Positions 2,016 to 36,681 of a stretch of DNA of 36,681 bases are shown here, piece by piece. The stretch comes from a virus: positions 1 through 36,681 of IMG/VR virus record IMGVR_UViG_3300030099_002876; one strand, given 5' to 3'. How positions within the stretch are numbered: position 1 is the first letter of the stretch; each line of letters begins with the position of its first letter. The translations under genes were made by a program, and so were the position numbers. The notes beneath the pieces are model-generated. The model did no database searches. It saw nothing but the letters and a program-made list of their open reading frames with translations, and was not told where the DNA came from.

Positions 2016-3833
2016 ATGCACACGGTAATTATTGATATCGAAACGAATGCGATTGATGATTGGTTGAACCTTTCGGACTTGGAGACTATCCATTGTTTGG
2101 TCGTCCGAACTAAAACAGAGGTTCAGGTTTACAACTCACAGCGTGGGGATATTGAGGAGGGGCTTAGGGAGATTGAGAATGCTGACATAATTGTTGGACA
2201 CAACCTTCTCAAGTTTGATATCCCGGCCCTGAAAAAGAAGTATGAATTCAACCCCAAGGGGTCTCTCCGGGACACCAAACTGATGGCTCAGTTGGCGTGG
2301 CCGGATACCCGGAATGACGATTTCAAATTGCCCGGATTCCCGAAGGTGTTGATTGGCTCTCACAGTCTTCAAGCTTGGGGGGAACGCCTTGGGGAGTTCA
2401 AGGGGGAGTATGGAGAAACTACGGATTGGTCGGTGTGGACCCAGGAGATGGAGGATTACTGTGTTCAAGATACCTTGGTAACTCTCCGGCTTTGGGAAGC
2501 TATTCAGCGAGAGGAACCCGCAGAGCTTTCAGTCAGCCTTGAACATGACTTTGCAGAGATCATCCGCCTACAGGAGATCAACGGATTTCGCTTTGACACC
2601 GAAAAAGCGAAGGATCTTCATGCAACTTTGTTGGATAATAAGGCTAAGCTGGAGAGAGAGCTTCAGGAAATTTTCCCCGCCGCTGAAGTTCCGATGAAGA
2701 CTCCACAGTATTGGTTGGCGAGCGGCAAGCAATACTCCACAAAGGGGGCCGCCAAGAAAGACAAGCACAAGGATTCAGAAATTCGCAAAGGCCCTCTGCG
2801 GGTGAAGCGAATCCCTTTCAACCCAGGGTCTCGGGATCAGATTGCCCAACAGCTGATCAAGAAGTACGGCTGGAAGCCTGAGAAGTTTACGGGGGAGGGT
2901 AAGCCTCAAATTGATGAGAGTATCTTGAACGCCCTTGAGTATAAAGAAGCACGGGTGTTGATGCGATACTTGACAATCACCAAGCGGCTTGGGCAACTCG
3001 CCGATGGTAAAGAGGCGTGGCTCAAAAACCAAACGAATGGCTGGATTCATGGAACTGTTAACACGAACGGAACGGTTTCTGGCCGATGCACCCACGCTCG
3101 ACCCAACGTAAGTCAGGTTCCTTCGACTGATTCTTGGTTTGGTAAGGAATGTAGATCATTGTTCCTGCCCAATCCTAACCATGTACTTGTTGGTTGTGAT
3201 GCGTCTGGTTTGGAACTGCGAATGCTTGCACATTATCTAGCTTTCGCTGATGGGGGAAAGTACGTGAAGCTGGTAACAGAAGGCGACCCCCACACCGCGA
3301 ATCAAGAGGCAGCAGGGTTGCCAACTAGGGCCGCTGCGAAAACATTTATCTACGCTCTTATCTACGGAAGCGGGGATCAAAACCTTGGGGGTCTTGTCGG
3401 GGGCGGCATCAAGGAGGGCAAGGCCATTCGGAAAAAGTTTATGGATGGGATGCCCGCTTTCAAAAAGTTAAAAGTGGCTGTGGATCTCGCAGTGGACACC
3501 AAGGGGTATCTCACAGGCTTGGACGGTAGGAAGCTACCAGTCAGATCCAAGCACTCCGCCTTAAACCTTTTGCTTCAGAGTGCAGGAGCTGTTGTTATGA
3601 AAACAGCAACGGTTGTACTCGCGGGACATATGAGACGGCAGGAGGCATTTGATCACGCCGTACAAGTTGCCCACATTCACGATGAAGTTCAGCTTTCATG
3701 CTCAGAGGAGGTTGCAAATGAATTGGGGAAGACCGCTTGCCGGTCCATCGTTACTGCTGGAAGGATCCTTGAATTGCGATGCCCACTTGACGCTGAATTT
3801 CGAGTGGGTGCCAACTGGGCAGAAACTCATTGA
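2016..3833 (+). CDS. Family A DNA polymerase (T7 gp5-like)
   Basis: The 605-residue replicative polymerase has a 3'-5' exonuclease domain (DIETN, catalytic Asp7 and Glu9; later GHNLLKFDIPAL and a DYCVQDT motif) and a family A polymerase domain. Motif A is GCDASGLELRMLA (Asp395), motif B is AAAKTFIYALIYG, and motif C is HIHDEV (Asp556). All catalytic residues are present. It is about 100 residues shorter than T7 gp5 (704). The ATG used is the one inside an AAGGATGCACAC element that elsewhere lies upstream of start codons, so the protein begins MHT. GGAG at 2006-2009 can serve as its ribosome site. A homing endonuclease gene overlaps the last 26 bases. Confidence 0.97.
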   Translation: MHTVIIDIETNAIDDWLNLSDLETIHCLVVRTKTEVQVYNSQRGDIEEGLREIENADIIVGHNLLKFDIPALKKKYEFNPKGSLRDTKLMAQLAWPDTRNDDFKLPGFPKVLIGSHSLQAWGERLGEFKGEYGETTDWSVWTQEMEDYCVQDTLVTLRLWEAIQREEPAELSVSLEHDFAEIIRLQEINGFRFDTEKAKDLHATLLDNKAKLERELQEIFPAAEVPMKTPQYWLASGKQYSTKGAAKKDKHKDSEIRKGPLRVKRIPFNPGSRDQIAQQLIKKYGWKPEKFTGEGKPQIDESILNALEYKEARVLMRYLTITKRLGQLADGKEAWLKNQTNGWIHGTVNTNGTVSGRCTHARPNVSQVPSTDSWFGKECRSLFLPNPNHVLVGCDASGLELRMLAHYLAFADGGKYVKLVTEGDPHTANQEAAGLPTRAAAKTFIYALIYGSGDQNLGGLVGGGIKEGKAIRKKFMDGMPAFKKLKVAVDLAVDTKGYLTGLDGRKLPVRSKHSALNLLLQSAGAVVMKTATVVLAGHMRRQEAFDHAVQVAHIHDEVQLSCSEEVANELGKTACRSIVTAGRILELRCPLDAEFRVGANWAETH

Positions 3834-4230
3834 CTTGGTTTATTCCGCAGGATACCTAGATGCAGAGGGGTGCTTTCGATTTAATCATAGTGCTACGATT
3901 AGCGTTACAAACACCTACCCGTACACGCTTATGTTTTTGCAGGTACTATTCGGAGGAACTATTCGCACTAAAACCACCGGACCATCACAACGCACTGCTT
4001 ACGAGTGGTATGTGACTGGTGATAATGCTAGGAACTGTTTGCAACTTGTATCCCCATACCTTAGAGAAAAGAAGCCTCAAGCGGTAATTCTTGCCGAGAT
4101 ACCTTTGTACCCTCGGAAATCTGTAAGAAGAAAAAAGTTGGAGCTGTTGTTAAAATCAAAAAAACGTATTGATTACACCACGGACAGGATGTCCAAGGAG
4201 ACCGCATGGATTCAAAGCGAACACTGTTGA
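3808..4230 (+). CDS. LAGLIDADG-family homing endonuclease
   Basis: The 140-residue product carries one LAGLIDADG-type motif near the N-terminus, LVYSAGYLDAEGCFRF. It is followed by the usual pattern of this family: ISVTNTYPYTLMFLQVLFGG, then a YEWYVTGDNARNCLQLVSPYL segment (split here: YEWYVTGDNA and RNCLQLVSPYL) and a basic tail. A single-motif protein should act as a dimer. It is a free-standing gene between DNA polymerase and exonuclease, the place where T7 carries the HNH endonuclease gene 5.3. The frame is open upstream into the polymerase, but GTG 3808 is the first sensible start. The 3' end overlaps the exonuclease start and supplies its AAGGAG ribosome site. It is likely a selfish element spreading next to polymerase. 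Confidence 0.8.
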   Translation: MPTGQKLIDLVYSAGYLDAEGCFRFNHSATISVTNTYPYTLMFLQVLFGGTIRTKTTGPSQRTAYEWYVTGDNARNCLQLVSPYLREKKPQAVILAEIPLYPRKSVRRKKLELLLKSKKRIDYTTDRMSKETAWIQSEHC

Positions 4231-10614: not shown

Positions 10615-13539
10615 ATGTTAGTTAGCAAAACTCTTCCTAACCTTATGAACGGGGTGTCTCAGCAGCCGGATGCATTAAGGTTTGATACTCAATGCGCCGC
10701 TCAAGAAAACGCATACCCAAGTGTTGTTGAGGGATTAACAAAAAGACAGCCTACAGAGCATATATGTCGAACGGCTTACACAGGGGATCAGGATACTTTT
10801 GTTCACACGATAAAACGTGAAGATCCTGAGCGATACACCGTCATAATCAGAGAAAAATCTATTCGAGTTTATGACCAAGACGGCAACGAAAAAACAGTAG
10901 AAATCCCTATAACTGCGGGGGCAAGCAATAACGACGTTACTTATTTGGACACCGCCACCCCTTCAACTTCTTTGAAAGCAAATACAATTGCAGATGTGAC
11001 CTACATTTCCAATTCGGAAATCACGCCCACAATGCAAGGGACAACCCCAGGGTCTTCTGCTGCTCATGAGGCCATTGTGTTTATTGGACAGGCACATAAC
11101 TCCACGTACACGATGACCGTAAAACAAGGAAACAACTCTGTTTCCGGGTCTGCTGACGGCGGTGAAACACCATCAGCTACTGCTATTGCTTCTGATTTAG
11201 CAGGCGATATTAACAATACATCCTCATCACAGTCTTACACGGGTGCAACTAGCAGCGTGGATTTTGTTCAATCCGACATTAGTTTTGATAAATCTGTCCA
11301 CGCGGTCTGCCAATCCTTCAGAGTGTCTAATACAGAGCCTATTACATCTTTTACTTGGCGAAGCGATAGGAATACCTTAGATACAACATACACTTGGGAA
11401 ATTCTTCCAGACAATAGCGGTGTTCCTAATTTTAGTGCGACCCCATTAGCAAGTACAACTTCTTCTGGATGCCCTGCAAACGAATCAAAAACAATTACTT
11501 TTTCTGGATCAGTTTTTACGCCCAGTACCGGAACCACCTATTGGTTAGTTCGGCACATAGAAATACTTTCGGTTCCCCGCCGTTACAAGCCGCAGCCTCG
11601 TGGATGGCTCTATAACGCAAGCGGAGATTACCCAACAAGCGGGCTTTTTATCGCTTCTGCGTACTTTAACGGTGCAGCGCGAACCGGCGATATGTGGTTC
11701 CAGATTCACCAACAACAAAGCAGCGGCAACAACACTTCAATCACTGCCGTATCGTCTGGCCCAATCGTGTACCTATCTTCTCCAGAAGATTTTTCTGTAA
11801 CGGGAACCAACAGTTTTTCAGATTCTTACATTCAAGTTTTTAAAAACAAAGCCCAAAAACTTTCTGCATTGCCCGTGCAAGCAAAAGATGGCATGGTGAT
11901 TGAAATAGAGGGCGAGCCTGACGCAGGGATTGACGACTTCTATGTAAAATTTGTTACAAGTGCGGCGGGAGAAAGCATTGGTGTAGGGGTATGGGAAGAA
12001 ACAGTAGGCCCAAACATTGAAAATGGTTTAGAGTTATCCCCCTCTAAAATGCCTCACTTGCTGATCAAGCAAACAAACGGCACGTTTGTATTTAAACCGG
12101 CAGACGGCGAAAGCCACACGAGCACGGGAGATGGAACGCCCACCTATGACTACTCAAAGTTTGCTTGGGGAAAACGGATTGCTGGAGATGTATTAACAAA
12201 CCCTGACCCCACCTTTGTGGGCAATTCCATCAACAATATGTTCTTGTACAAGAACCGATTTGGAATCCTGTCTGGGGAAAACATCATTCTCAGTGAGGCT
12301 GGAGAATACTTTAATTTCTTCCGCACCACGGTCATTGACCTCTTGGATACGTCTGTAATTGATATTGCTTCCGCCAGTAGTGAGGTCTCGATTCTTCGGC
12401 ACGCTTTGCCTTTGTCTGAAAGCCTAGTAATCCTCTCCGATTCCGCTCAGTTTATTCTTCAATCAGATACGGCACTGACGGCTAAAACCGTTTCATTAGC
12501 GAGGGCGACTGCCTACAACACAATTAAAAACACCCCACCGGACTCCGCTGAAAACTCAGTGTTCTTTGCTTTTAATCGGGGGTCGTTTTCGGGGGTTCGT
12601 GAGTATCTGTCTACCGATCTGGAGCAGAACTACGAAGGAATTGATATATCCACTCAAATTCCAAAGTACATCCCTGGGGAAATTACACACCTTAAAGCGG
12701 CGAATCACGACAGCGTGCTTTGTTGCTTGGCTTCTGGTGATACCGATGCGGTCTATGTGTACAACTTCTACAACTCAGATACCAAGAGGCTGCAAAGTGC
12801 TTGGCATCGTTGGGAGTTTGGAAGTGGATCGAAGATTTACAACATTGACTTCATTGATACACATCTCTATTTGACCATATATAGAGAAGAAGGGGTCTTT
12901 ATTGAAAAGCTTGCTGTAGAAATAGGTAAAACAGATACAGGGTCTGATTATGTGTCCAGATTAGATCGAAGGTTTACACAATCCACTTCAGGAGTTTTGG
13001 TAAGCGGGTCTACCATTACCATGCCCTACAAAAAAACCCCAGGGCGAAACATCGAGGTCATCACCACATCCGGTGAAAGAATCTCTGTAGCTTCTCAAAC
13101 CAACGGCTCAAATTCAATCACAATGGTCAAGGACATGACGGGCGTTAATTTTTATGCTGGCGAAGCCTACACCATGTCATACACGTTTTCTGACATTACT
13201 TTGAAAGAAGGGACGCAAACGGGCGGTCTTGCAGTAATCACAGATGGAAGAATCCAAGTTCGATACGGGACAGTCACATATAGTGATTCAGGGTTTTTCA
13301 AAATCTCTGTAACTCCTAATTTTCGAGATACCAGTGACCACGAATTTACTGGCCGCATTTTGGGAGAAGGCACAATGACTTTGGGATCTGTGCCTTTAGA
13401 GTCTGGGGAATTTAGGTTCCCTGTTTTCTCTAAGGCAGACCAAGTAGAAATTACATTGACAAACGACACGCCACTTCCTTGTAAACTTCTTTCAGCGGAG
13501 TATGAGCTTTCATGGAATCCCAAGGTACGGAGGATGTAA
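10615..13539 (+). CDS. Tail tubular protein B / nozzle (T7 gp12-like) with inserted domain
   Basis: The 974-residue protein is about 180 longer than T7 gp12 (794). Family signatures are KTLPNLMNGVSQQPDALRF, NAYPSVVEGLTKRQPTEHI, FAWGKRIAGD, NNMFLYKNRFGILSGENIIL and FFRTTVIDLLDTSVIDIA. The extra length sits at about residues 214-370. There the sequence looks like a secreted-type beta-sandwich: QSFRVSNTEPITSFTW, TYTWEILPDNSGVPN, TGTTYWLVRH, then a run ending in MWFQIH. That pattern occurs in Ig-like or carbohydrate-binding modules of extracellular proteins. It forms the distal tail tube. Confidence 0.94.
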   Translation: MLVSKTLPNLMNGVSQQPDALRFDTQCAAQENAYPSVVEGLTKRQPTEHICRTAYTGDQDTFVHTIKREDPERYTVIIREKSIRVYDQDGNEKTVEIPITAGASNNDVTYLDTATPSTSLKANTIADVTYISNSEITPTMQGTTPGSSAAHEAIVFIGQAHNSTYTMTVKQGNNSVSGSADGGETPSATAIASDLAGDINNTSSSQSYTGATSSVDFVQSDISFDKSVHAVCQSFRVSNTEPITSFTWRSDRNTLDTTYTWEILPDNSGVPNFSATPLASTTSSGCPANESKTITFSGSVFTPSTGTTYWLVRHIEILSVPRRYKPQPRGWLYNASGDYPTSGLFIASAYFNGAARTGDMWFQIHQQQSSGNNTSITAVSSGPIVYLSSPEDFSVTGTNSFSDSYIQVFKNKAQKLSALPVQAKDGMVIEIEGEPDAGIDDFYVKFVTSAAGESIGVGVWEETVGPNIENGLELSPSKMPHLLIKQTNGTFVFKPADGESHTSTGDGTPTYDYSKFAWGKRIAGDVLTNPDPTFVGNSINNMFLYKNRFGILSGENIILSEAGEYFNFFRTTVIDLLDTSVIDIASASSEVSILRHALPLSESLVILSDSAQFILQSDTALTAKTVSLARATAYNTIKNTPPDSAENSVFFAFNRGSFSGVREYLSTDLEQNYEGIDISTQIPKYIPGEITHLKAANHDSVLCCLASGDTDAVYVYNFYNSDTKRLQSAWHRWEFGSGSKIYNIDFIDTHLYLTIYREEGVFIEKLAVEIGKTDTGSDYVSRLDRRFTQSTSGVLVSGSTITMPYKKTPGRNIEVITTSGERISVASQTNGSNSITMVKDMTGVNFYAGEAYTMSYTFSDITLKEGTQTGGLAVITDGRIQVRYGTVTYSDSGFFKISVTPNFRDTSDHEFTGRILGEGTMTLGSVPLESGEFRFPVFSKADQVEITLTNDTPLPCKLLSAEYELSWNPKVRRM

Positions 13540-24614: not shown

Positions 24615-24884
24615 ATGGCGAAGCCCCGAAAAGGTAAAGCAAAAGTAAAAGTAGTCACCAACCCTAAGACGGGTCGGAAACGCCGCGTGTCTTACGGCCA
24701 AGCAGGCAAAGCAAAAGACGGGGGCAACCGGGTTCGGCCTGGAACTTCTAAGGGTGATAGTTACTGTGCAAGGTCTTTAGGGATTAAGAACAGGCTTCCC
24801 GAATCTAAAAGAAACGACCCCAACACCCCTAACAATCTTTCAAGAAAGCGTTGGAAGTGTAAAGGAGCAAAGAGCCAAAAATGA
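24615..24884 (+). CDS. Basic small protein with CARS and NNLSRKRWKC motifs
   Basis: 89 residues. A lysine-rich start (KPRKGKAKVKVVTNPKTGRK) is followed by GDSYCARSLGI and NTPNNLSRKRWKCKG. Proteins with SYCARS-x-GI and PNNLSR-KW-C occur in aquatic phages and large algal viruses as short uncharacterised genes; this is from memory. The two cysteines could bind metal. Stop overlaps the next start (ATGA). Confidence 0.8.
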   Translation: MAKPRKGKAKVKVVTNPKTGRKRRVSYGQAGKAKDGGNRVRPGTSKGDSYCARSLGIKNRLPESKRNDPNTPNNLSRKRWKCKGAKSQK

Positions 24885-25096
24885 AAGAGATACTTCAAAA
24901 TCTCCATGAACTCTTGGCTAAAGAGTTAACGGACAAAATCCAATCGGGAGAATCCACAAGTGCGGAACTCAGCGTTGCTCGCCAATTCCTTAAGGACAAT
25001 GGCATTGACGCAAACACCGGACAGTCCGAGCCTCTTTTAAACTTGGCAAAGGTGCTTCCGTTTGACCCTAAAGACCCTGTTGAGGAAACAGGATAA
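24881..25096 (+). CDS. Terminase small subunit (T7 gp18-like)
   Basis: 71 residues: LHELLAKELTDKIQSGESTS, then AELSVARQFLKDNGID, and an acidic C-terminus. The pattern LHELLA-EL---I-SGE-T--EL--A-QFLKDNGI is what I recall for small terminase/DNA packaging proteins of T7-like marine phages. It would recognise concatemers and regulate the large subunit. It is separated from the large subunit by three small basic genes. Start overlaps the previous stop. Confidence 0.78.
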   Translation: MKEILQNLHELLAKELTDKIQSGESTSAELSVARQFLKDNGIDANTGQSEPLLNLAKVLPFDPKDPVEETG

Positions 25097-25664: not shown

Positions 25665-27338
25665 ATGACAGATCCCAGGTTACATGACTTCAGAAACTTT
25701 CTGTACTTGTGTTGGGAACACCTGGGACTCCCTGACCCTACCCCGGTTCAATACGACATTGCGGATTACATCCAGAACGGCCCAAAGCGGCGTTGTGTGA
25801 TGGCGTTCCGTGGTGTGGGCAAGTCTTGGATTACCTCGGCGTTCGTGGTGCATCAGTTGTTACTGGACCCCACCAAGAACATCCTGGTGGTCTCCGCATC
25901 AAAGCAACGTGCTGATGACTTCTCCACTTTCACCTTGCGACTCATTGATGAGATGCCGGTCCTTCAGCACCTGAAGCCTCACGAAAATCAAAGAAACTCC
26001 AAGATTGCTTTTGATGTGGGGCCAGCACCTGCGGCACACGCCCCCTCCGTTACCTCGAAGGGGATCACAAGTCAGATCACGGGTGCAAGAGCTGATGTCA
26101 TCATCAGTGACGATGTGGAGAGCTTGAACAACTCCGCCACTCAAATGATGCGTGACAAGCTGGCGGAGCAGATCAAGGAATTCGATGCAGTCCTCAAACC
26201 TGGAGGACACATCATTTACCTGGGAACTCCCCAGACTGAAGCCAGTCTTTACAACCAACTCCCAGAGCGTGGCTATGACATCCGCATATGGCCCGCCAGG
26301 ATACCGACAGAACGGCAACGATTGGGATATGGCCCCAAGTTGGCCCCCATGATTGCCAAATTGGATTTAGAAGAGGATGCTCCCGTAGACCCAAAAAGAT
26401 TCAATACATTTGACCTGCTTGAACGTGAAGCCTCATATGGGAAATCGGGGTTTGCTCTTCAATTCATGCTGGACACCACACTGTCCGATGTGGATCGCTA
26501 CCCCCTTAAGTTGTCGGATCTGATCGTAATGCGATTGGACAAGGAACACGCTCCTGAGAAGATCGTGTGGGCGGGGTCTCCTGAGTATGCGTACAAAGAC
26601 CTGCCGTGTGTGGGGATGTCCGGTGACCGGTACTACATGCCGATGGGCGTTTCAGGGGACTTCTTGAAATACCAGGGATCTGTCCTCGCCATAGACCCCA
26701 GTGGCCGAGGTAAGGACGAGACCGCCTACGCAGTTATCAAGATGTTGAACTCACAGCTCTTCCTGACAGCCGCAGGAGGACTCCCTGGGGGGTACTCAGA
26801 AGAGACCCTGAAGGAGCTGGCAGTCATCGCCAAAGACCACGATGTCAATGAAGTAATCATCGAGTCAAACTTCGGGGATGGCATGTTCACCGCCCTGTTT
26901 CAGCCGATTCTTGCCAAGATCCACAAAGTCACGATCAACGAAGTTCGCCACAGTATCCAGAAAGAACGGCGAATTTTGGACGTTTTAGAGCCAGTTCTAG
27001 CCAGGCACAAATTAGTGGTGGATGAGTCCATAATCCAAAAGGATTACAACTCCACCCAACACCTGCCCCCTGACAAAGCCCTGAAATACATGCTGTTCTA
27101 CCAGATGACCCGGTTGACCAGGGATAAAGGCTCCCTAGCCCATGATGACCGCCTGGATGTTCTGGCAATCGCAGTGAACTACTGGACTGAACAGATGTCT
27201 AGGGATGTTGATGATGCTATGAAAGTCCACCAACAAGAAAAGCTCCGCACGGATCTAGACAAATTCATGGAGAATGCTCTTGGAAGCCACGGAAGGCAGG
27301 AAACCACATGGATAACCGGGCAGAACTCAGGAGCGTGA
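25665..27338 (+). CDS. Terminase large subunit (T7 gp19-like)
   Basis: The 557-residue packaging motor (T7 gp19 has 586) has an ATPase domain with Walker A MAFRGVGKSW (residues 46-55), then LVVSASKQRADDFS and Walker B VIISDDVESL. The nuclease domain has LAIDPSGRGKDETAYAVI, then EVIIESNFGDGMF and HDDRLDVLAIAV. It translocates DNA into the prohead and cuts the concatemer. TGATG at its stop couples it to the next gene. Confidence 0.97.
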   Translation: MTDPRLHDFRNFLYLCWEHLGLPDPTPVQYDIADYIQNGPKRRCVMAFRGVGKSWITSAFVVHQLLLDPTKNILVVSASKQRADDFSTFTLRLIDEMPVLQHLKPHENQRNSKIAFDVGPAPAAHAPSVTSKGITSQITGARADVIISDDVESLNNSATQMMRDKLAEQIKEFDAVLKPGGHIIYLGTPQTEASLYNQLPERGYDIRIWPARIPTERQRLGYGPKLAPMIAKLDLEEDAPVDPKRFNTFDLLEREASYGKSGFALQFMLDTTLSDVDRYPLKLSDLIVMRLDKEHAPEKIVWAGSPEYAYKDLPCVGMSGDRYYMPMGVSGDFLKYQGSVLAIDPSGRGKDETAYAVIKMLNSQLFLTAAGGLPGGYSEETLKELAVIAKDHDVNEVIIESNFGDGMFTALFQPILAKIHKVTINEVRHSIQKERRILDVLEPVLARHKLVVDESIIQKDYNSTQHLPPDKALKYMLFYQMTRLTRDKGSLAHDDRLDVLAIAVNYWTEQMSRDVDDAMKVHQQEKLRTDLDKFMENALGSHGRQETTWITGQNSGA

Positions 27339-27499
27339 TGAACCAATTCGTGGACGCTTGGGATGATTTCCTGACAGATGAAATCAACACCTCAGACCTC
27401 ACAGATCATGTCATCAAACTGATGAAATTGGTGGACAAGATCACAGGCATCAAAGACCCTAGAACGCCCTCAGAGGCCGACACATCCACAGAAGGATGA
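27338..27499 (+). CDS. Small acidic hypothetical after terminase
   Basis: 53 residues beginning MNQFVDAWDDFLTDEIN, acidic and helical. I chose ATG 27338 because CAGGAG lies 5 bases upstream and the start overlaps the terminase stop (TGATG). The frame is open to ATG 27308. The position corresponds to the accessory genes around T7 gene 19. No function is recognised. Confidence 0.68.
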   Translation: MNQFVDAWDDFLTDEINTSDLTDHVIKLMKLVDKITGIKDPRTPSEADTSTEG

Positions 27500-27645
27500 A
27501 AAAGGACTCCACCTACCTTGAGATACTAGAAGCCCTTAGAAGCGATCCTAGAGCCTTAGAGATCAAATGGCATTTGGAACGACTCATTGAGAAACATAAG
27601 GTTTCTTGGGGCCGACAATGCTCAGGACTCAGGAAAAATCGCTAG
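27496..27645 (+). CDS. Basic 49-residue hypothetical
   Basis: The product begins MKKDSTYLEILEALRSDPRA and continues EIKWHLERLIEKHKVSWGRQ, a helical amphipathic pattern with a basic end. It begins at ATGA overlapping the previous TGA. It is too short for most gene callers but has gene-like composition. It is the last gene before the structured non-coding region. Confidence 0.6.
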   Translation: MKKDSTYLEILEALRSDPRALEIKWHLERLIEKHKVSWGRQCSGLRKNR

Positions 27646-27663
27646 GATTATTCCAGGATCTTT

Positions 27664-27742
27664 GAGACCTCCCTTACCTCCTCATGATTACCAGGATTGA
27701 GTGCATCCTTGACTGGTTTTCGTGGGGGGTAAGGGGGGCCTC
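27664..27742 (+). other. Long stem-loop (RNA or DNA structure)
   Basis: Bases 27664-27682 pair with 27724-27742 over 19 positions, with one A-C mismatch and three G-T/G-U pairs; the 3' arm is G-rich (GGGGGGTAAGGGGGG). The 41-base loop contains a smaller hairpin (AGGAT, 7-base loop, ATCCT). The G-U pairs make the fold stronger as + strand RNA than as DNA. Confidence 0.6.
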
Positions 27743-27775
27743 TTCTACTAGGATCTTGGAAAAATCCTAATAAAG

Positions 27776-27841
27776 ATAACTATAGAATATCTATAGAGAC
27801 ACTATAAGACAATGTAAAGATATCTATAGAACAACTATATC
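27776..27841 (+). repeat. Six-unit 11-bp tandem array
   Basis: The units in order are ATAACTATAGA, ATATCTATAGA, GACACTATAAG, ACAATGTAAAG, ATATCTATAGA and ACAACTATATC. The shared CTATA(G)A core recurs exactly every 11 bases (27780, 27791, 27802, degenerate 27813, 27824, 27835), close to one helical turn. T7 carries arrays of short repeats next to its terminal repeats, so a packaging role is a reasonable analogy. Confidence 0.8.
27798..27810 (+). promoter_or_regulatory. Candidate phage RNA polymerase promoter near the right end
   Basis: GACACTATA in the third array unit is identical to the nine-base core of the SP6 promoter (GACACTATAG), and resembles K11 and T7 cores (CACTATAG). T7 has the promoter phi-OR in the same place, after the terminase. 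The upstream half of the SP6 promoter is not matched. Inference. Confidence 0.35.
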
Positions 27842-27898
27842 TTAGTTGTACTGGTTGTCTTTTACTTCTCCTTCTTCTCTTCCTTCTAGTACAACTAA
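27842..27898 (+). repeat. 11-bp inverted repeat around a pyrimidine tract
   Basis: TTAGTTGTACT (27842-27852) and AGTACAACTAA (27888-27898) are perfect inverted copies. The 35-base spacer is almost wholly pyrimidine from 27858 to 27887. It directly abuts the 11-bp array and lies just before ATG 27911, so as RNA it would form a hairpin in that gene's leader. Confidence 0.75.
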
Positions 27899-27910
27899 AG
27901 AGGCTCTAAG

Positions 27911-28159
27911 ATGTTGATAATGGTCAAATGGCTAGACATCTTAGGAGAGGATCAAAATCCTTGGAGTAGCTTGGAAGAAGCTAAAGAGCTGAAACCAGCT
28001 CCAATAACCTCCATTGGGAAACTCCTGGAAGACAACGACGAGTACATCACCATAGCTGCCTCATGGGATGATGAATCTGAACTGGTTGGGAATGTCAACT
28101 GCATACCCAAAGGAGTCATCAGAGAAGTCTCAAGAGTTGGGGTTGTAGATCCTGATTAG
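27911..28159 (+). CDS. Small conserved-looking hypothetical between structured regions
   Basis: 82 residues: MLIMVKWLDILGEDQNPW, then ITSIGKLLEDNDEYITIAAS, then GNVNCIPKGVIREVSRVG. Short phage proteins with the pattern SxGxLL---D-YI-IA-SW----- - -G-V--IPKG-I--V--L are familiar, without a known function. AGAGG lies about 8 bases before ATG 27911. It is isolated between two structured non-coding regions; terminal repeats in T7-like phages can include or flank small genes. Confidence 0.68.
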   Translation: MLIMVKWLDILGEDQNPWSSLEEAKELKPAPITSIGKLLEDNDEYITIAASWDDESELVGNVNCIPKGVIREVSRVGVVDPD

Positions 28160-28172
28160 AATTCGGGTAATT

Positions 28173-28226
28173 TTGGCGAAAAAATTTGAGGGGGTATATA
28201 CGATGAATTTTGTCGCCAATACCCCC
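28173..28226 (+). other. Pseudoknot-capable inverted repeats
   Basis: Stem 1 is 28173-28186 with 28206-28219 (TTGGCGA-A-AAAATT against AATTTT-G-TCGCCAA), 13 of 14 positions paired. Its loop contains GGGGGTAT (28190-28197), a perfect complement of ATACCCCC (28219-28226) immediately 3' of stem 1. The two stems interleave as in an H-type pseudoknot, sharing one base at 28219. A competing arm TTTTCGCC (28241-28248) pairs perfectly with GGCGAAAA (28175-28182). Confidence 0.65.
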
Positions 28227-28308
28227 AGTGCCCCCAAGCGTTTTCGCCGTCCAATCCTATAAACATACCGCAAGCTATATATAAAGTCTTAACCTGTAGA
28301 GCATCCCG

Positions 28309-28326
28309 GTACACTTAGAATCTACC
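28309..28326 (+). repeat. Degenerate copy of the early promoter element
   Basis: GTACACTTAGAATCTACC resembles GTACACTTGACAATCTACC of the three functional-looking copies at 28480, 28950 and 29622. The -35 hexamer is broken and no good -10 follows, so this is probably a decayed copy. Confidence 0.45.
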
Positions 28327-28385
28327 CGGGACAATCTTAGGTCGTCGGCCGACCTTCCAGGTTCCCTTATCTTTCCCAGTTTACC

Positions 28386-28410
28386 GCCCTATATTTCATA
28401 GGGCTATTTT
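28386..28410 (+). terminator. Intrinsic terminator before early promoters
   Basis: A perfect 7-bp stem GCCCTAT / ATAGGGC closes a 5-base loop and is followed by TATTTTAAAA. It would stop late transcripts reading through the joined ends of concatemers before the early promoters. Confidence 0.7.
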
Positions 28411-28485
28411 AAAATTATAAATCCTTTAACCGCCTACACTTACAGCGTATTCCCTAAAAACTTTCCCGAATTCCATCAAGTACAC

Positions 28486-28514
28486 TTGACAATCTACCGA
28501 TGGTAGGTTAGGAT
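28486..28514 (+). promoter_or_regulatory. Host sigma70-type early promoter 1
   Basis: TTGACA (28486-28491), 17-base spacer, TAGGAT (28509-28514). It is preceded by the shared GTACAC and drives the first early gene at 28556. It belongs to a family of three near-identical promoters. Confidence 0.8.
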
Positions 28515-28555
28515 TCGACTGTTCAAGTTTTTTAAACCATTTAAGGGATGCGCTC

Positions 28556-28903
28556 ATGAAGATTCAATATACCGGACGTGATGGAATTGAACGCGAAACC
28601 GAAAACGTATGGGTTGATTGGCCCGATGGGTATTGTTGGCTCGTGGTAAATCAGTGGGGAGTTATTGGCGCGGTCATCACAATGAACAAAGGCGAAACCG
28701 GATGGCACGAAGCGTACGAATGCGCAGTCGATGAGATTGCCCACGATTACCATGCGGACAATCAGGAGGAATTAGAGGTGGCAATGGCCGATGGTATGGC
28801 TATGTATCGGGGGAACGGCATCCCATCGAATTCCAATCGGGAATCGGCCATTGCAGATACCGAATATCTGACAGTCATTCGGCCACAATCTCTCCGAGCC
28901 TGA
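28556..28903 (+). CDS. Early hypothetical protein 1
   Basis: 115 residues, acidic and rich in Trp (VWVDWPDGYCWLVVNQWG). The middle part, GWHEAYECAVDEIAHDY, looks helical. T7 and relatives put host-takeover proteins such as anti-restriction functions first in the early region, so such a role is possible, but nothing in the sequence proves it. A start-associated element (TTTAAGGGATGCGCTC) precedes ATG 28556. Confidence 0.82.
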   Translation: MKIQYTGRDGIERETENVWVDWPDGYCWLVVNQWGVIGAVITMNKGETGWHEAYECAVDEIAHDYHADNQEELEVAMADGMAMYRGNGIPSNSNRESAIADTEYLTVIRPQSLRA

Positions 28904-28922
28904 AAATACCTGGGCTAGTGTC
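28904..28922 (+). repeat. Degenerate GGCC intergenic element
   Basis: AAAATACCTGGGCTAGTG directly after the stop resembles the 5' half of the intact copies at 29979, 30590 and 30891. The second hairpin arm is missing. Confidence 0.5.
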
Positions 28923-29015
28923 GTAGAATTTTTTACCCTTTTTCGTAAAGTACACTTGACAATCTACCGATGTAGTAGTAGTATCAAACCGAACCCAATT
29001 TTAAGGATGCACACA
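28923..29015 (+). repeat. 93-bp promoter-leader repeat, copy 1
   Basis: 88 of 93 bases are identical to 29595-29687. It contains an AT-rich upstream part (GAATTTTTTACCC), the promoter, a leader (ACCGAACCCAATTTTAAGG) and the start-associated element, as a complete expression cassette. Confidence 0.93.
28956..28984 (+). promoter_or_regulatory. Host sigma70-type early promoter 2
   Basis: TTGACA (28956-28961), 17-base spacer, TAGTAT (28979-28984). The AT-rich sequence just upstream could act as an UP element. It drives the gene at 29016. Confidence 0.82.
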
Positions 29016-31336: not shown

Positions 31337-31567
31337 ATGATTAACATTGTCCCCGAACAAAAATCAAAGCGTTTACCTGGGTTGATTGAGATCCTCAGCA
31401 ACAAGGCACACACCAAGACCCGTGCCAAGGACATTGCAGAATCGAAGTGTGACCGTGGTGAGCCGTTGTTGATTCAGGTTGATGAGTACGGGAAGACTCG
31501 GTATCTTGCGGCACAGCTCACGTTGGTCCCCGGCTCCCGTGGATCTGTTACGATACCCGCAGATTAG
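31337..31567 (+). CDS. Early hypothetical protein 10
   Basis: 76 residues: SKRLPGLIEILSNKAHTKTR, then AESKCDRGEPLLIQVDEYGK and TRYLAAQLTLVPGS. No family is recognised. The base composition is closer to that of the integrase and polymerase than to the earlier small genes. A start element (GAAAGGATGCACAG) precedes ATG 31337. Confidence 0.74.
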   Translation: MINIVPEQKSKRLPGLIEILSNKAHTKTRAKDIAESKCDRGEPLLIQVDEYGKTRYLAAQLTLVPGSRGSVTIPAD

Positions 31568-31643
31568 TGCATCTCTTTCTCCTCCGGTGGGGGTGCGACC
31601 ACCTAAAAACGCACGCCTCTTTACTACACTGAAAGGATTAAGA

Positions 31644-32648
31644 ATGCCGATCATCCTTCGCGGCGAAAAATTTCAGGTTACGGTTCACCGTAACCGCAAG
31701 CGTTACCGAAGAACATTTACAGATCATCAAGAAGCAAAGGTATGGGAGGCGCAGGCCGTTGCCGACTTGGTTGCGGGGAAGCTCCCCGACCTTGGCGAGA
31801 CTCGCGGAACTTCTAGTCCCCGCACGGTGCAAGAGCTTGCGTGGCATACCTACCGCACGGAGTGGTCGGGAACCCCCAGCGACGACAAGGCGCAGATCAA
31901 CATCAACCAGTTGATTGATGCTTTGGGTTCCGACACTTTGATTCAAGATGTTAATGCTTCCTTGATTGATGCGGCGAAGTTGTCATGGAAGGCTCGCGGC
32001 AACGCCCCCGGTACAATCAATCGCAAGTTGTCTTGCCTCTCCAAGATTCTCAGCAAAGCTATGGACATGGGGATCATCGACGAGAAGCCGAAGCTGACCA
32101 AGGAGAAGGAGCCACCCAGTAGGATCAGGTGGTACACCGATCAAGAAAAGGTGGCGATCTCGGAGGCCCTGAAGGAACTCGGTTACGACCGCTACGTTGG
32201 CTTGGTTGAGGTGCTGATGGGGACGGGGCTGCGGTGTGGAGAGCTTTTCCGCTTGCAGCCCAGGGATATCCAAGGCAACCTGATTGTTGTGGAAATCAAC
32301 AAGTCGGCGTGGCCTCGTTCGGTGCCGATGACGAAGCGAGTTCGCACCGTTATCAATCGGGAACTCTCCGCAATGGCTCGGGATCAGGAAACCCTTTGGG
32401 GGTGGACGACATACGAGAAGTTCTCCCGAGTCTGGAACGAGGCTCGCGGTGCTTTGGGGTGGAGCGATGATCCGCAGGCTATCCCCCACGCCTGTAGGCA
32501 CACTTTTATCACGAACCTTGTACAGCGCGGAGTCTCCATGCCGGTGATTCAAAAGCTCGCAGGTCACAGGTCCATCACGATGACTATGAAGTATGCTCAC
32601 CTGGGTTCCCAGGATCTGGAGGGAGCCATCTCAGCGTTGGAGGGTTGA
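31644..32648 (+). CDS. int: Tyrosine recombinase / integrase
   Basis: 334 residues. An N-terminal arm-binding region (ILRGEKFQVTVHRNRKRYRR) is followed by a SAM-like core-binding domain (TVQELAWHTYRTEWSG to INRKLSCLSKILSKA) and the catalytic domain. Catalytic residues visible are Arg197 (GTGLRCGELF), His282 and Arg285 (HACRHTF), His308 (LAGHRS) and Tyr317 (MKYAH). It would integrate the phage at the attP probably lying in the tRNA four bases downstream. The frame is open to 31479, but ATG 31644 follows GAAAGGA and begins the recognisable domain. Its place before RNA polymerase matches integrase-bearing cyano- and pelagiphage podoviruses. Confidence 0.93.
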   Translation: MPIILRGEKFQVTVHRNRKRYRRTFTDHQEAKVWEAQAVADLVAGKLPDLGETRGTSSPRTVQELAWHTYRTEWSGTPSDDKAQININQLIDALGSDTLIQDVNASLIDAAKLSWKARGNAPGTINRKLSCLSKILSKAMDMGIIDEKPKLTKEKEPPSRIRWYTDQEKVAISEALKELGYDRYVGLVEVLMGTGLRCGELFRLQPRDIQGNLIVVEINKSAWPRSVPMTKRVRTVINRELSAMARDQETLWGWTTYEKFSRVWNEARGALGWSDDPQAIPHACRHTFITNLVQRGVSMPVIQKLAGHRSITMTMKYAHLGSQDLEGAISALEG

Positions 32649-32652
32649 CGTG

Positions 32653-32735
32653 GTGGGCGTGGCGAAATCGGCAAACGCACAAGACTTAAAATCTTGCGAC
32701 CCTTGGTCTTACGGGTTCGAGTCCCGTCGCCCACA
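32653..32735 (+). tRNA. tRNA-Leu (anticodon UAA), probable attP
   Basis: A complete cloverleaf: acceptor GTGGGCG with CGCCCAC (7 of 7), D-arm GCG/CGC, anticodon stem CAAGA/TCTTG with loop CTTAAAA (anticodon TAA at 32687-32689), long variable arm (class II), T-arm ACGGG-TTCGAGT-CCCGT and discriminator A32735. The CCA end is not encoded. It directly follows the integrase gene, the usual arrangement for an attP that restores the host tRNA after integration. Confidence 0.93.
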
Positions 32736-32769
32736 CTAATTTACAATTTTTTGTAGTATAAAGCGGAGC

Positions 32770-32810: not shown

Positions 32811-35192
32811 ATGCGTCAATCTGATTTAGATTCAGAGATGATTGAGTTGGGCCGAGACCGATATTGGTCGAAGGTCAATCGCGGACAAAACGATCAGATG
32901 GAAACATACTCCCCAGTCGCTAAGCGGCTGCTGGGTGAATCCATCATCAGACTGCAAGAAACCATCGAGTTCTGGTGCCACAACGCGAGGACGGGGCCGG
33001 GGCGTAAGCATCGGTGTTTAGAGTACATCGAGCTGCTGCCGTCTGATCTGGTTGCGGCGTTGACGGCTCGCACGGTACTCGATGGCATCTCGATGCGCCG
33101 GACGTTGACCGCGATCAGCATTCGGCTAGGCCAGTACCTAGAAGATGAATACCGATTCCGAAAAATTCAGGAAGAGGAGCCGGAGCTTTGGAAATCTTTG
33201 TTCAACCGAACGAAAAAGCACGGTGGGTACGTTCAGAAGCGAAGGTTCATCCATAAGTCTGCGAAGGCGGCGGGTGTGGTACTTCCCAGGTGGACGGGGA
33301 AGGTTGCTTGTTCTGTCGGGTTGGTGTTGGTGGAGTTGATGAAGGAGGCCACGGGTCTCATCGAGATCAAGACCATCAACACGTTGTTCAACCGCAGCAC
33401 AACGATGGTGATGGCGACCGATGATCTGTTGGATTGGATCAAGAAGGCTCACGGTCACCATGAAATCTTGTCTCCCGTGTTCCTACCTACCGTGGTGAAG
33501 CCGATGCCGTGGCAGTCGATATACATCGGGGGCTATCACTCGGATGAGGTCCGTCGGCGGCCACTCGTAAAGTCTTACGACAAGAAATTTTTGGAGGAGT
33601 TGAACAACACCGACATGCCAGCTGTGTACGAGTGCTTGGGGCATGAGCAGGACACGGCTTGGAGGATTAACGAGGAGGTGCTGAAATGTGTGCGGCACGC
33701 TTACGACCACAACCACCAAGTCGGCGGACTCCCTACCAACCAAGACCACGATCTTCCTGATCGCCCCGATGACTGGGAGGACCCCGTTCAGCAGAAGCTG
33801 TGGAGACGACACGCGGCTGAGATCCATCGCCTTAACAACGGGGACCGCTCCAAGCGACTGCAACTCGGAAAGATTTTATATCTTGCTGAAAAGTTCAAAG
33901 GCCGTCCCATTTGGTTTCCGAAGCAATGTGATTTTCGCGGACGCACTTACGATATCCCAAGCCCTTTGAATTGTCAGGGTTGTTCGGTTGCGAAAGCACT
34001 CTTGGAGTTTTCAGAGGGTGACCCGATAGAGAATCAGAACGATGCGAACTGGTTAGCGGTTCAAGCTGCAAACACCTGGGGCCACGATAAGAAAACCTTC
34101 GACTACCGGGTGAAGTGGGTGTGGGAAAACGAGGATCTATTCCGACGGATTGCGAAAGATCCATTAGGGTACACCCAGTGGAAGGATGCTGATGAGCCTT
34201 GGGAGTTCTTAGCGGTTGCGATGGACATCGGAAGGTTTCTGGAGCAGGGCTATGGCTATGTATCACGAACTGCGGTGGCCCAAGACGCTTCCAATCAAGG
34301 CTTACAAATTTATGCGTTGCTTCTCCGCGATGAAGAGGCGGCGCGTAATACCAATGTATTACCGAGCAATACCCCCCAAGATTTATATGCGATGGTGGCT
34401 CAACGAGTTATTGACCTGTTGAAGAACACCTCCAACGATTACAACGACGGCTGGCTTTCTTTTGGAATTACTAGAGCTACCACGAAAAGGCAGACGATGG
34501 TACTTCCATACGGATCTACCAAGCAGAGTTGTAAGGAGTACACCATCGAATGGTTCCAAGAAATGTTGACGAGGCGTGGTGTGGTGAACCCATTCGATGA
34601 GGTGTTTAAGCCCTGCATCTACTTGTCGGATCTGATCTGGGATTCCATTGGTGATGTTGTTTCCTCCGCACGGGTTGGCATGGATTGGCTTAGAAATGTC
34701 GCACGCATTTGCATGGAAAACAAAGTTAACCCAATGTGGACCTCGCCGTCTGGATTCCTGGTCAAGCAGCTATATGAAAAGCAAGCGAGTTATGAGGTCA
34801 AGACCAGCATTGGTGAGAAGATTCGCAGGCACCGGCTGCAATACGGCAGGGGTGAAGCAGCTCCCCGCAGGAACATCAACGGGATCAGCCCGAACTATGT
34901 TCATTCTCTTGACGCTGCTTTGAAAACCCTCACGATTAATCTCTCAGCAAGCGCGGGGGTGTCCCAGTTCGCAGCGGTACACGACTCTTTGTCCACCACC
35001 GCCAAGCACTCCGGCACACTCGCAACCGCAGTGCGACAATCCACTGTAGATATGTTCACTCCCAATTTGTTGGAAGTGTTTAGGAATCAGATCGAGTGCC
35101 AGCTTCCGGTTGGCGTGGAACTTCCCGATGTACCTGCGATGGGTAAGCTTAACATCACAAAGGTGATGGAATCGGATTACTACTTCGCGTGA
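32811..35192 (+). CDS. Single-subunit DNA-dependent RNA polymerase (T7 gp1-like)
   Basis: 793 residues (T7 gp1 has 883). Catalytic motifs are present: VAQDASNQGLQIYALLLRDE with Asp492, ATTKRQTMVLPYGS with Lys559 and Tyr567 (spacing identical to T7 Lys631/Tyr639), and FAAVHDSL with Asp725. Also ICPNYVHSLDAA-type segment as ISPNYVHSLDAALKTL and an aromatic C-terminus ending YYFA, like the T7 'foot' FAFA. It transcribes the middle and late genes from phage promoters. It is made from the early transcripts and has its own start element. The N-terminal domain is shorter than in T7. Confidence 0.97.
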   Translation: MRQSDLDSEMIELGRDRYWSKVNRGQNDQMETYSPVAKRLLGESIIRLQETIEFWCHNARTGPGRKHRCLEYIELLPSDLVAALTARTVLDGISMRRTLTAISIRLGQYLEDEYRFRKIQEEEPELWKSLFNRTKKHGGYVQKRRFIHKSAKAAGVVLPRWTGKVACSVGLVLVELMKEATGLIEIKTINTLFNRSTTMVMATDDLLDWIKKAHGHHEILSPVFLPTVVKPMPWQSIYIGGYHSDEVRRRPLVKSYDKKFLEELNNTDMPAVYECLGHEQDTAWRINEEVLKCVRHAYDHNHQVGGLPTNQDHDLPDRPDDWEDPVQQKLWRRHAAEIHRLNNGDRSKRLQLGKILYLAEKFKGRPIWFPKQCDFRGRTYDIPSPLNCQGCSVAKALLEFSEGDPIENQNDANWLAVQAANTWGHDKKTFDYRVKWVWENEDLFRRIAKDPLGYTQWKDADEPWEFLAVAMDIGRFLEQGYGYVSRTAVAQDASNQGLQIYALLLRDEEAARNTNVLPSNTPQDLYAMVAQRVIDLLKNTSNDYNDGWLSFGITRATTKRQTMVLPYGSTKQSCKEYTIEWFQEMLTRRGVVNPFDEVFKPCIYLSDLIWDSIGDVVSSARVGMDWLRNVARICMENKVNPMWTSPSGFLVKQLYEKQASYEVKTSIGEKIRRHRLQYGRGEAAPRRNINGISPNYVHSLDAALKTLTINLSASAGVSQFAAVHDSLSTTAKHSGTLATAVRQSTVDMFTPNLLEVFRNQIECQLPVGVELPDVPAMGKLNITKVMESDYYFA

Positions 35193-36178: not shown

Positions 36179-36681
36179 GCCGTGTCCTGCGTGTGGAAGC
36201 AAGGATAACCTGGCGAGGTACTCCGACGGACACGCTTGGTGTTTCGGCTGCAACTACCGCGAACACACTGGAGAGGTTTTGAACGTGATAGCAAAACCAA
36301 AGGATGCACGATTCATCGAGGGGGAGACATCGCCACTCCAGAGCCGGGGACTCACAGAAGCTACCTGCGGTAAATTTAACTACAAAGTTGGGGAGTTCAA
36401 CGGCAGGCACTGCCACATCGCAGCCTACCGAGGGGCGGATGGGGCGTTGGTCGGACAGAAGCTCCGCTTCCGTGACAAGTCATTTATGATGATCGGAAAG
36501 TCTTCCGGTTTATTCGGTGAGCATCTTTTCCGAGATGGTGGAAAAATGATTACGGTCACCGAGGGCGAGCTTGATTGTCTTTCCGTTAGCCAAGCCTTTG
36601 GAAACAAGTGGCCGGTGGTCTCCGTTCCTAACGGAGCCAAGGGAGCGGCGAAGGCAATAAAGAATTCGTTGGAGTTCTTGG
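36135..36681 (+). CDS. Primase-helicase, N-terminal part (T7 gp4-like)
   Basis: The start at ATG 36135 places the zinc-finger cysteines at residues 17, 20, 36 and 39 (EPCPACGS and WCFGC), exactly the numbering of T7 gp4A. LQSRGLTEATC and KLRFRDKSFMMIG follow, and then VTEGELDCLSV of the TOPRIM domain, running into bases 1-1151 across the junction. The zinc domain reads the primase recognition sequence. An internal in-frame GTG at 36285 with GGAGAGG eight bases upstream could give a short form without the zinc finger, as T7 makes gp4B. Confidence 0.95.
   Translation, partial: MSMDPESSSQFLHHEPCPACGSKDNLARYSDGHAWCFGCNYREHTGEVLNVIAKPKDARFIEGETSPLQSRGLTEATCGKFNYKVGEFNGRHCHIAAYRGADGALVGQKLRFRDKSFMMIGKSSGLFGEHLFRDGGKMITVTEGELDCLSVSQAFGNKWPVVSVPNGAKGAAKAIKNSLEFL
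36583..36681. repeat. Contig-end direct repeat (copy 2)
   Basis: Identical to bases 1-99; see the first entry. Coding sequence of the primase-helicase. Confidence 0.97.

Follow-up and report, generated by a model that had tools for sequence, protein, structure and literature searches.

A conserved left-end motif and a probable T7-type terminal-repeat boundary in an integrase-bearing phage genome

The DNA analyzed here, referred to as the window, is the whole 36,681-base virus sequence of IMG/VR record IMGVR_UViG_3300030099_002876, and the element in question lies around positions 28173-28226, where an earlier note had described a pseudoknot-capable element at the presumed genome end. The assembly spans the genome junction, with the late genes followed by the interval 27339-28555 and then by the early genes. 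On the late side are the genes for the terminase small subunit of the T7 gp18 type (24881-25096, plus strand; phrog_891, E = 3.1e-16) and for the large subunit, or DNA maturase B, of the T7 gp19 type (25665-27338, plus strand; phrog_38, E = 7.9e-115), the latter product sharing 58-62% identity with the maturase B of Roseobacter and Pelagibacter phages. A T7-type RNA polymerase gene (32811-35192) and an integrase gene (31479-32648), which adjoins a tRNA-Leu gene (32653-32736), are also present, and together with the terminases they mark the window as an integrase-bearing T7-like (Autographiviridae) phage. The order at the site, in which the large terminase gene ends at 27338, a cut is predicted at 28196, and early host-type promoters follow at 28486 and 28956, is that of a T7-type boundary, and the genome encodes both the small and the large T7-type terminase that belong with one.

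Past the large terminase gene and ahead of the early promoters stands a conserved DNA motif of ~60 bp, TTTTGG..AAAAATCTGA-N7-/-N25-CCCCC, in which the slash marks the cut and AAAAATCTGA is referred to as the anchor. Its layout is TTTTGG-N3..4-AAAAATCTGA, a G-rich 7-mer often ending in GGGTA, a variable spacer, and CCCCC. In the window, the conserved half to the left of the cut (28169-28196, plus strand) consists of a TTTTGG-type block and AAAAATTTGAGGGGGTA, for which the family consensus is AAAAATCTGA-N7; the first 30 bases of the predicted terminal repeat (28197-28226, plus strand) start with TATACGATG and end in the C-run at 28222-28226. Across 64 distinct elements, that of the window included, several positions counted from the anchor start never vary: 0-3 (A), +5 (T), +8 (G), and +43 to +45 (C). 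The distance from the anchor start to the beginning of the C-run is 41 nt in 23 elements, 42 nt in 31, and 43 nt in 10 (64/64), the elements having been selected by a profile that already favours this spacing. An exact 16-mer scan returned 24 stretches, of which 13 were judged to have the right context and 11 not. Fifteen loci were dropped before the count of 64 was made: four that duplicated a counted element or were a second record of one (L081, L087, L088, L092), and 11 lacking the context (L084, L085, L086, L089, L090, L091, L093, L094, L097, L098, L101). Matches with E above 0.01, those with fewer than 11/16 anchor matches, and elements cut by a contig end were also excluded, and identical elements were merged.

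The motif stands in a fixed register with known phage ends. In the T7 record itself, the start of the stated 160-bp repeat lies 17 nt beyond that of AAAAATCTGA, and the same distance from anchor to repeat start is found in T7, T3, gh-1, K30, Syn5, P-SSP7, HTVC019P, and Pasto, that is, in eight of the ten records with a stated or shared repeat; the start was taken from a comparison of the two ends for gh-1 and from the record boundary (PhageTerm) for Pasto. A 64-column matrix built from seven known ends (T7, T3, gh-1, HTVC019P, P-SSP7, Syn5, and K30) located the cut to the exact base in 7/7 phages when each was left out in turn and its end fragment, 277-1509 bases long, was scanned. When both strands of the window are scanned, the top site is 28197 as the first repeat base, with a score of 19.23, the next site scoring 3.69. 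The matrix and the 17-nt register together place the predicted concatemer cut, and with it the left end of the direct terminal repeat, at 28196-28197 (no strand assigned), and they support the earlier description of the site as a presumed genome end. A hidden Markov model (HMM) of six phages likewise finds only this site in the window (E = 1.5e-4; next, 0.6). The predicted first nine bases, TATACGATG, are identical to the sequenced P-SSP7 terminus. The ends of P-SSP7 were established by sequencing virion DNA, with a repeat primer that starts TATACGATG (PMC3350473), and counting of read ends gave the T3 end TCTCATAG (PMC3896407).

The left end of P-SSP7 reads GATTTTGGC..CTGAGGTCATA/TATACGATG and the window reads AATTTTGGC..TTGAGGGGGTA/TATACGATG, with a nearly equal distance to the C-run; P-SSP7 differs in its anchor, AAATGTCTGA, and on the 3' side, where it has CCCCCGTAGGGGG and the window has CCCCCAGTGCCCCC. 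The left ends of T7 and T3 share with the window AAAAATCTGA, a cut 17 nt after its start, and CCCCC 25 nt past the cut, whereas T7 lacks the TTTTGG block and the G-run, and the right-end motif CCCT/ATCTGTT, clear in T7 and T3, is not clear in the window. In Pelagibacter phage HTVC019P, which also bears an integrase and has an exact repeat of 162 bp, the left end is GAGGGGGTA/T, with a G-run identical to that of the window, although its anchor is AAAATTATGA and the body of its repeat differs. The pacB/pacC packaging sites of T3 presumably have the same genome location and role as the window site.

The motif also extends beyond the phages used to define it. An HMM of the 64 elements, whose training set comprised viral contigs, cultured phages, and the window but no genome-contig locus, finds it downstream of the terminase in 27/43 loci on bacterial and archaeal genome contigs and in 0/41 upstream controls (E ≤ 0.01); 44 such loci were fetched, one of which had too little downstream sequence. 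The motif follows the terminase match at distances of 32-3059 bp, in every case on the same strand, with no hit on the minus strand. These genome-contig loci are probably prophages or co-binned phages.

Bases 1-99 and 36583-36681 of the record are identical and lie inside a primase/helicase-like gene, indicating that the record was assembled as a circle. The identical ends are an assembly overlap of a circular contig, and the record is probably a complete genome whose terminal repeat has collapsed to one copy; the conserved element occurs once between the two 99-base ends. Circular assembly with a collapsed terminal repeat is described for T7-like genomes, P-SSP7 among them (PMC3350473), and the physical ends of such genomes are described as usually lost in assembly, so that end sequencing is needed (PMC3350473, PMC10438801). 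The first hint of a boundary came from the DNA similarity between the window and its relatives, which stops near 28227.

Taken together, these observations point to a gene-independent DNA motif that is conserved and keeps a constant register to known ends, located in the interval from terminase to early promoters. In our assessment, the direct terminal repeat of a T7-like phage very probably has its left boundary in this stretch, where the concatemer would be cut to form the left end of the packaged genome. The kind is already known, the T7-type terminal-repeat boundary, and the window is a further member of it. Among the roles that had been offered for the element, that of a packaging or processing signal is supported by the match to the left ends of cultured T7-like phages. 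No description of the conserved end motif or its register was found in the literature searched, which covers little of the older T7/T3 work, and a search with the anchor string gave no phage-end paper by title among the matches listed. As the older T7/T3 papers fall mostly outside that literature, we do not claim that the motif is undescribed.

Replication and recombination through the terminal repeat are described as giving concatemers with one repeat per junction (PMC10438801, PMC3350473). The terminase of this phage (24881-25096 and 25665-27338) would recognize the left-end motif as double-stranded DNA and cut the concatemer between 28196 and 28197, giving a virion genome that would begin 5'-TATACGATG. 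The repeat would be ended by another cut ~160-250 bp further right and would be duplicated as the concatemer is processed. On this view the G-run, A-run, and C-run would act as recognition sequence and not as stems, and the motif would be the recognition and cut site for the end opposite to the right end marked by ATCTGTT.

Several points weigh against placing a terminal-repeat boundary here. Cutting between 28196 and 28197 is a prediction from sequence. The annotated repeat of LUZ100 starts 29 nt after the anchor start, 12 nt further right than the register predicts, and phiKMV and SP6 have no anchor, SP6 also having no annotated repeat. With an HMM made from T7, T3, and gh-1 alone, which is too narrow, the window site ranks fourth (E = 7.5). 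The seven-end HMM, applied over 326 kb (E ≤ 0.01), matches in just 28/123 loci, with 0/116 controls and none on the minus strand, so this small model is weak; the missed loci include distant terminases and short contigs. On the right, the best CCCT/ATCTGTT match in the 500 bases downstream would give a repeat of 172 bp (28197-28368, plus strand), and with a score of 5.1 this candidate at 28368 is a weak guess that does not stand out, higher scores occurring elsewhere in the window. Finally, a terminal-repeat boundary leaves unexplained an inverted repeat in the window that is beyond chance.

That inverted repeat is the first of two interleaved pairings. In stem 1, TTGGCGAAAAAATT (28173-28186) pairs with AATTTTGTCGCCAA (28206-28219) on the plus strand at 13/14 positions, as had been claimed, the sole mismatch being A/G at 28180/28212. 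Stem 2 joins GGGGGTAT (28190-28197) to ATACCCCC (28219-28226), also on the plus strand, and consists largely of the conserved G-run and C-run. The exact 8-base complement that forms it is present; it had been placed immediately 3' of stem 1, and it actually overlaps that stem at base 28219. As this base is claimed by both stems, only 7/8 of the stem 2 pairs are compatible with a full stem 1. A third segment, TTTTCGCC (28241-28248), is complementary to 28175-28182 and is used in the RNA minimum-energy fold, in line with the proposed competition for the first arm. The configuration counted was a stem with at least 13/14 Watson-Crick pairs, a loop of 3-25, and an interleaved 8-mer complement. It occurs once in the window, in 0/40 whole-window dinucleotide shuffles, and in 0/1500 shuffles of 28100-28560, which upholds the view that two interleaved pairings are unlikely by chance. 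Without the interleaved complement, the stem turns up on average 0.075 times per shuffled window (about once per 13 windows) and is present in 4/1500 local shuffles. The fold energy is moderately unusual, with a z of -2.61 for RNA (28160-28260, plus strand) and of about -2 for DNA. The pairing pattern is therefore real and improbable in isolation, yet it is not conserved, and the near-perfect inverted repeat is confined to this phage. It may mark a symmetric site particular to the lineage, or it may be a chance arrangement that drew attention because such patterns are what a reader searches for.

A phage-specific DNA element set atop the conserved motif would give the inverted repeat a function, as a symmetric cleavage site or an extruded hairpin centred on the cut; the terminase might use two symmetric half-sites, or the hairpin might contribute to completing the left repeat. 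For the concatemer ends of T7, an intermediate with a hairpin has been proposed. The completion of the left repeat in T7 is described as still not fully understood (PMC3350473). The dyad centre of the repeat, at 28196.0, is half a base from the predicted cut at 28196.5, and when the conserved motif is held fixed and the 23-base spacer 28198-28220 is shuffled, 13/14 is reached in only 6/400,000 trials, both of which favour such an element. The known ends argue the other way, since none has comparable symmetry: in seven phages, with seven register shifts each, 1-9 of 14 mirrored positions pair, versus 13 in the window. We regard a phage-specific element of this kind, in either variant, as very unlikely.

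The conservation could also reflect a transcription feature at the end of the late operon, such as a promoter for the phage RNA polymerase, a pause site, or a terminator. The site does follow the last gene, and the concatemer junction of T7 is described as also being a polymerase pause site (PMC3276506, PMC11617373). The motif nevertheless lies at the physical left end of cultured phages in a fixed 17-nt register, which makes this explanation very unlikely.

If the element acted as RNA, its pairing would be expected to persist among relatives. The 63 other elements were aligned on the A-run, and the 3' arms were permuted between relatives as a control. Stem 1 has a mean of 4.92/14 paired positions versus 4.87 after permutation, with 328/1000 permutations reaching the observed value, and 13/14 is found in 0/63 relatives. 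With register shifts of -4 to +4 allowed, the best relative, L096, has 12/14, of which 8 are Watson-Crick, and the stem is not formed in the nearest relatives, L002, L015, and L140, whose terminases are 84-87% identical. Stem 2 has 4.48/8 versus 4.32 after permutation, a slightly high value that 48/1000 permutations reach, the reason being that the letters themselves are conserved in three G and three C columns. In an alignment of 15 sequences, 46% of the cells of both stems combined are paired, versus 43% when shuffled, and doubly changed pairs number 7 versus 6.5 in shuffles (257/500 reach this). Leaning towards pairing in the same alignment are the paired cells (3/500 shuffles), the cells changed on both sides (38/500), and the covariation score (20/500). 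RNAalifold retains three G-C pairs and no others, with no covariation among them, and a scan with Rfam 15 at gathering scores returns only the tRNA in the window and nothing credible in 27900-28600. Of the marks of an H-type pseudoknot, two interleaved stems are thus present and compensatory change in relatives is not. The check for compensatory changes in homologous regions that had been suggested therefore came out against pairing, and neither a structured RNA nor a leader switch is supported.

Two further hairpins were considered and rejected. A conserved local hairpin, AATTTT with AAAATT or GATTTT with AAAATC, first looked compensatory (G-C to A-T), and both sides are changed in only 1/15 rows; it is paired in 86.7% versus 86.1% of shuffled cases in the 15 rows and at 4.46 versus 4.37 of 6 positions in the 63 relatives (22/1000 permutations). 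We treat it as sequence conservation and not proven structure. A hairpin of the C-run and G-run inside the repeat, in the T7 register, is fully paired in 8/63 relatives, with no excess over permutation, and the window lacks the G arm.

A pseudoknot made in a late or early transcript, serving as a leader switch, an exonuclease block, or a processing signal, would draw on the 13/14 pairs with their interleaved complement and on the RNA fold energy, and we consider it highly improbable, given that relatives pair at the level of permuted arms, that there is no consensus fold or Rfam match, that base 28219 is shared with no nucleotide between the stems, which would be a strained geometry for 14 pairs, and that the conserved letters reach upstream of the stems and match T7 ends.

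Several records bear on how phage ends appear in sequence collections. The linear record of Roseobacter phage CRP-227 (OR420746.1; loci L105 and L113) ends ...AAAAAAATCTGA and starts GGTGGTATACG; the record appears to have been broken within the motif, 7 nt short of the predicted end, and to hold the repeat in collapsed form. HTVC109P carries the motif and was opened elsewhere. The repeat copies of gh-1 are annotated as 217 and 216 (NC_004665.1), and comparison of the ends supports 216, which restores the 17-nt register. Contig ends were tried as proof of physical ends and set aside: the L103 contig overlaps itself, with the region at 98-238 and 37682-37822 of 37822 (99-100%), and the L034 contig holds one copy of the region. 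The right ends of SP6 (L110) and phiKMV (L108) share AATTTTGATAT[AC]G[GT]CGTGTG in place of AAAAATCTGA, possibly a second class of end motif, and parts of this sequence (TTTGATATAG) recur after the anchor in some contigs, for example L058.

At the right end of the repeat, ATCTGTT directly follows the end in T7, T3, Syn5, and Pasto and occurs at 178 in K30. It is described as a class II pause sequence (PMC11617373). The annotated 393-bp repeat of K30 (HM480846.1, locus L187) extends beyond the CCCT/ATCTGTT at 178; przondoviruses related to K30 are described as having repeats of 180-183 bp (PMC10438801), and the K30 annotation may be too long. The strongest match to the right-end (ATCTGTT) matrix on the plus strand of the window, at 12616 with a score of 16.3, falls inside a long tail-gene-like open reading frame (ORF) and is possibly due to chance. 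A terminator-like hairpin with a T-rich tail lies near the predicted right repeat end (28386-28404, plus strand), and similar hairpins followed by AT-rich DNA were seen by eye at comparable places in L015, L102, L005, and L006. Further on, a host-type early promoter, TTGACA-17-TAGGAT, lies at 28486-28514 on the plus strand, with a second at 28956-28984. They sit in a 41-bp repeat (28462-28502 and 28932-28972, 83% identical), each copy of which has a TTGACA promoter with a 17-base spacer, and the copies are duplicated early promoters.

The last gene before the genome end is an 82-aa ORF to which no function was assigned (27911-28159, plus strand; phrog_25889, E = 4.7e-6). DNA similarity to L015, L002, L003, and L009 spans all or part of it. 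A search for close relatives by way of this ORF confirmed none, and a DNA search with 27500-29000 against named phages gave zero matches. Repeated CTATAGA-type 20-mers upstream of it, at 27776-27839, are possibly phage RNA polymerase promoters like T7 phiOR. Directly after the DNA polymerase gene, the ORF at 3649-4230 contains a YSAGYLDAEGCF stretch, which we take to resemble the LAGLIDADG homing endonuclease motif.

With the stretch read as a T7-type left boundary, the register of anchor, 17 nt, cut, 25 nt, and C-run would allow the left end to be proposed to the base from sequence alone in anchor-carrying phages, including uncultured marine ones and prophages. It also gives defined letters to alter when the formation of the left repeat is tested.
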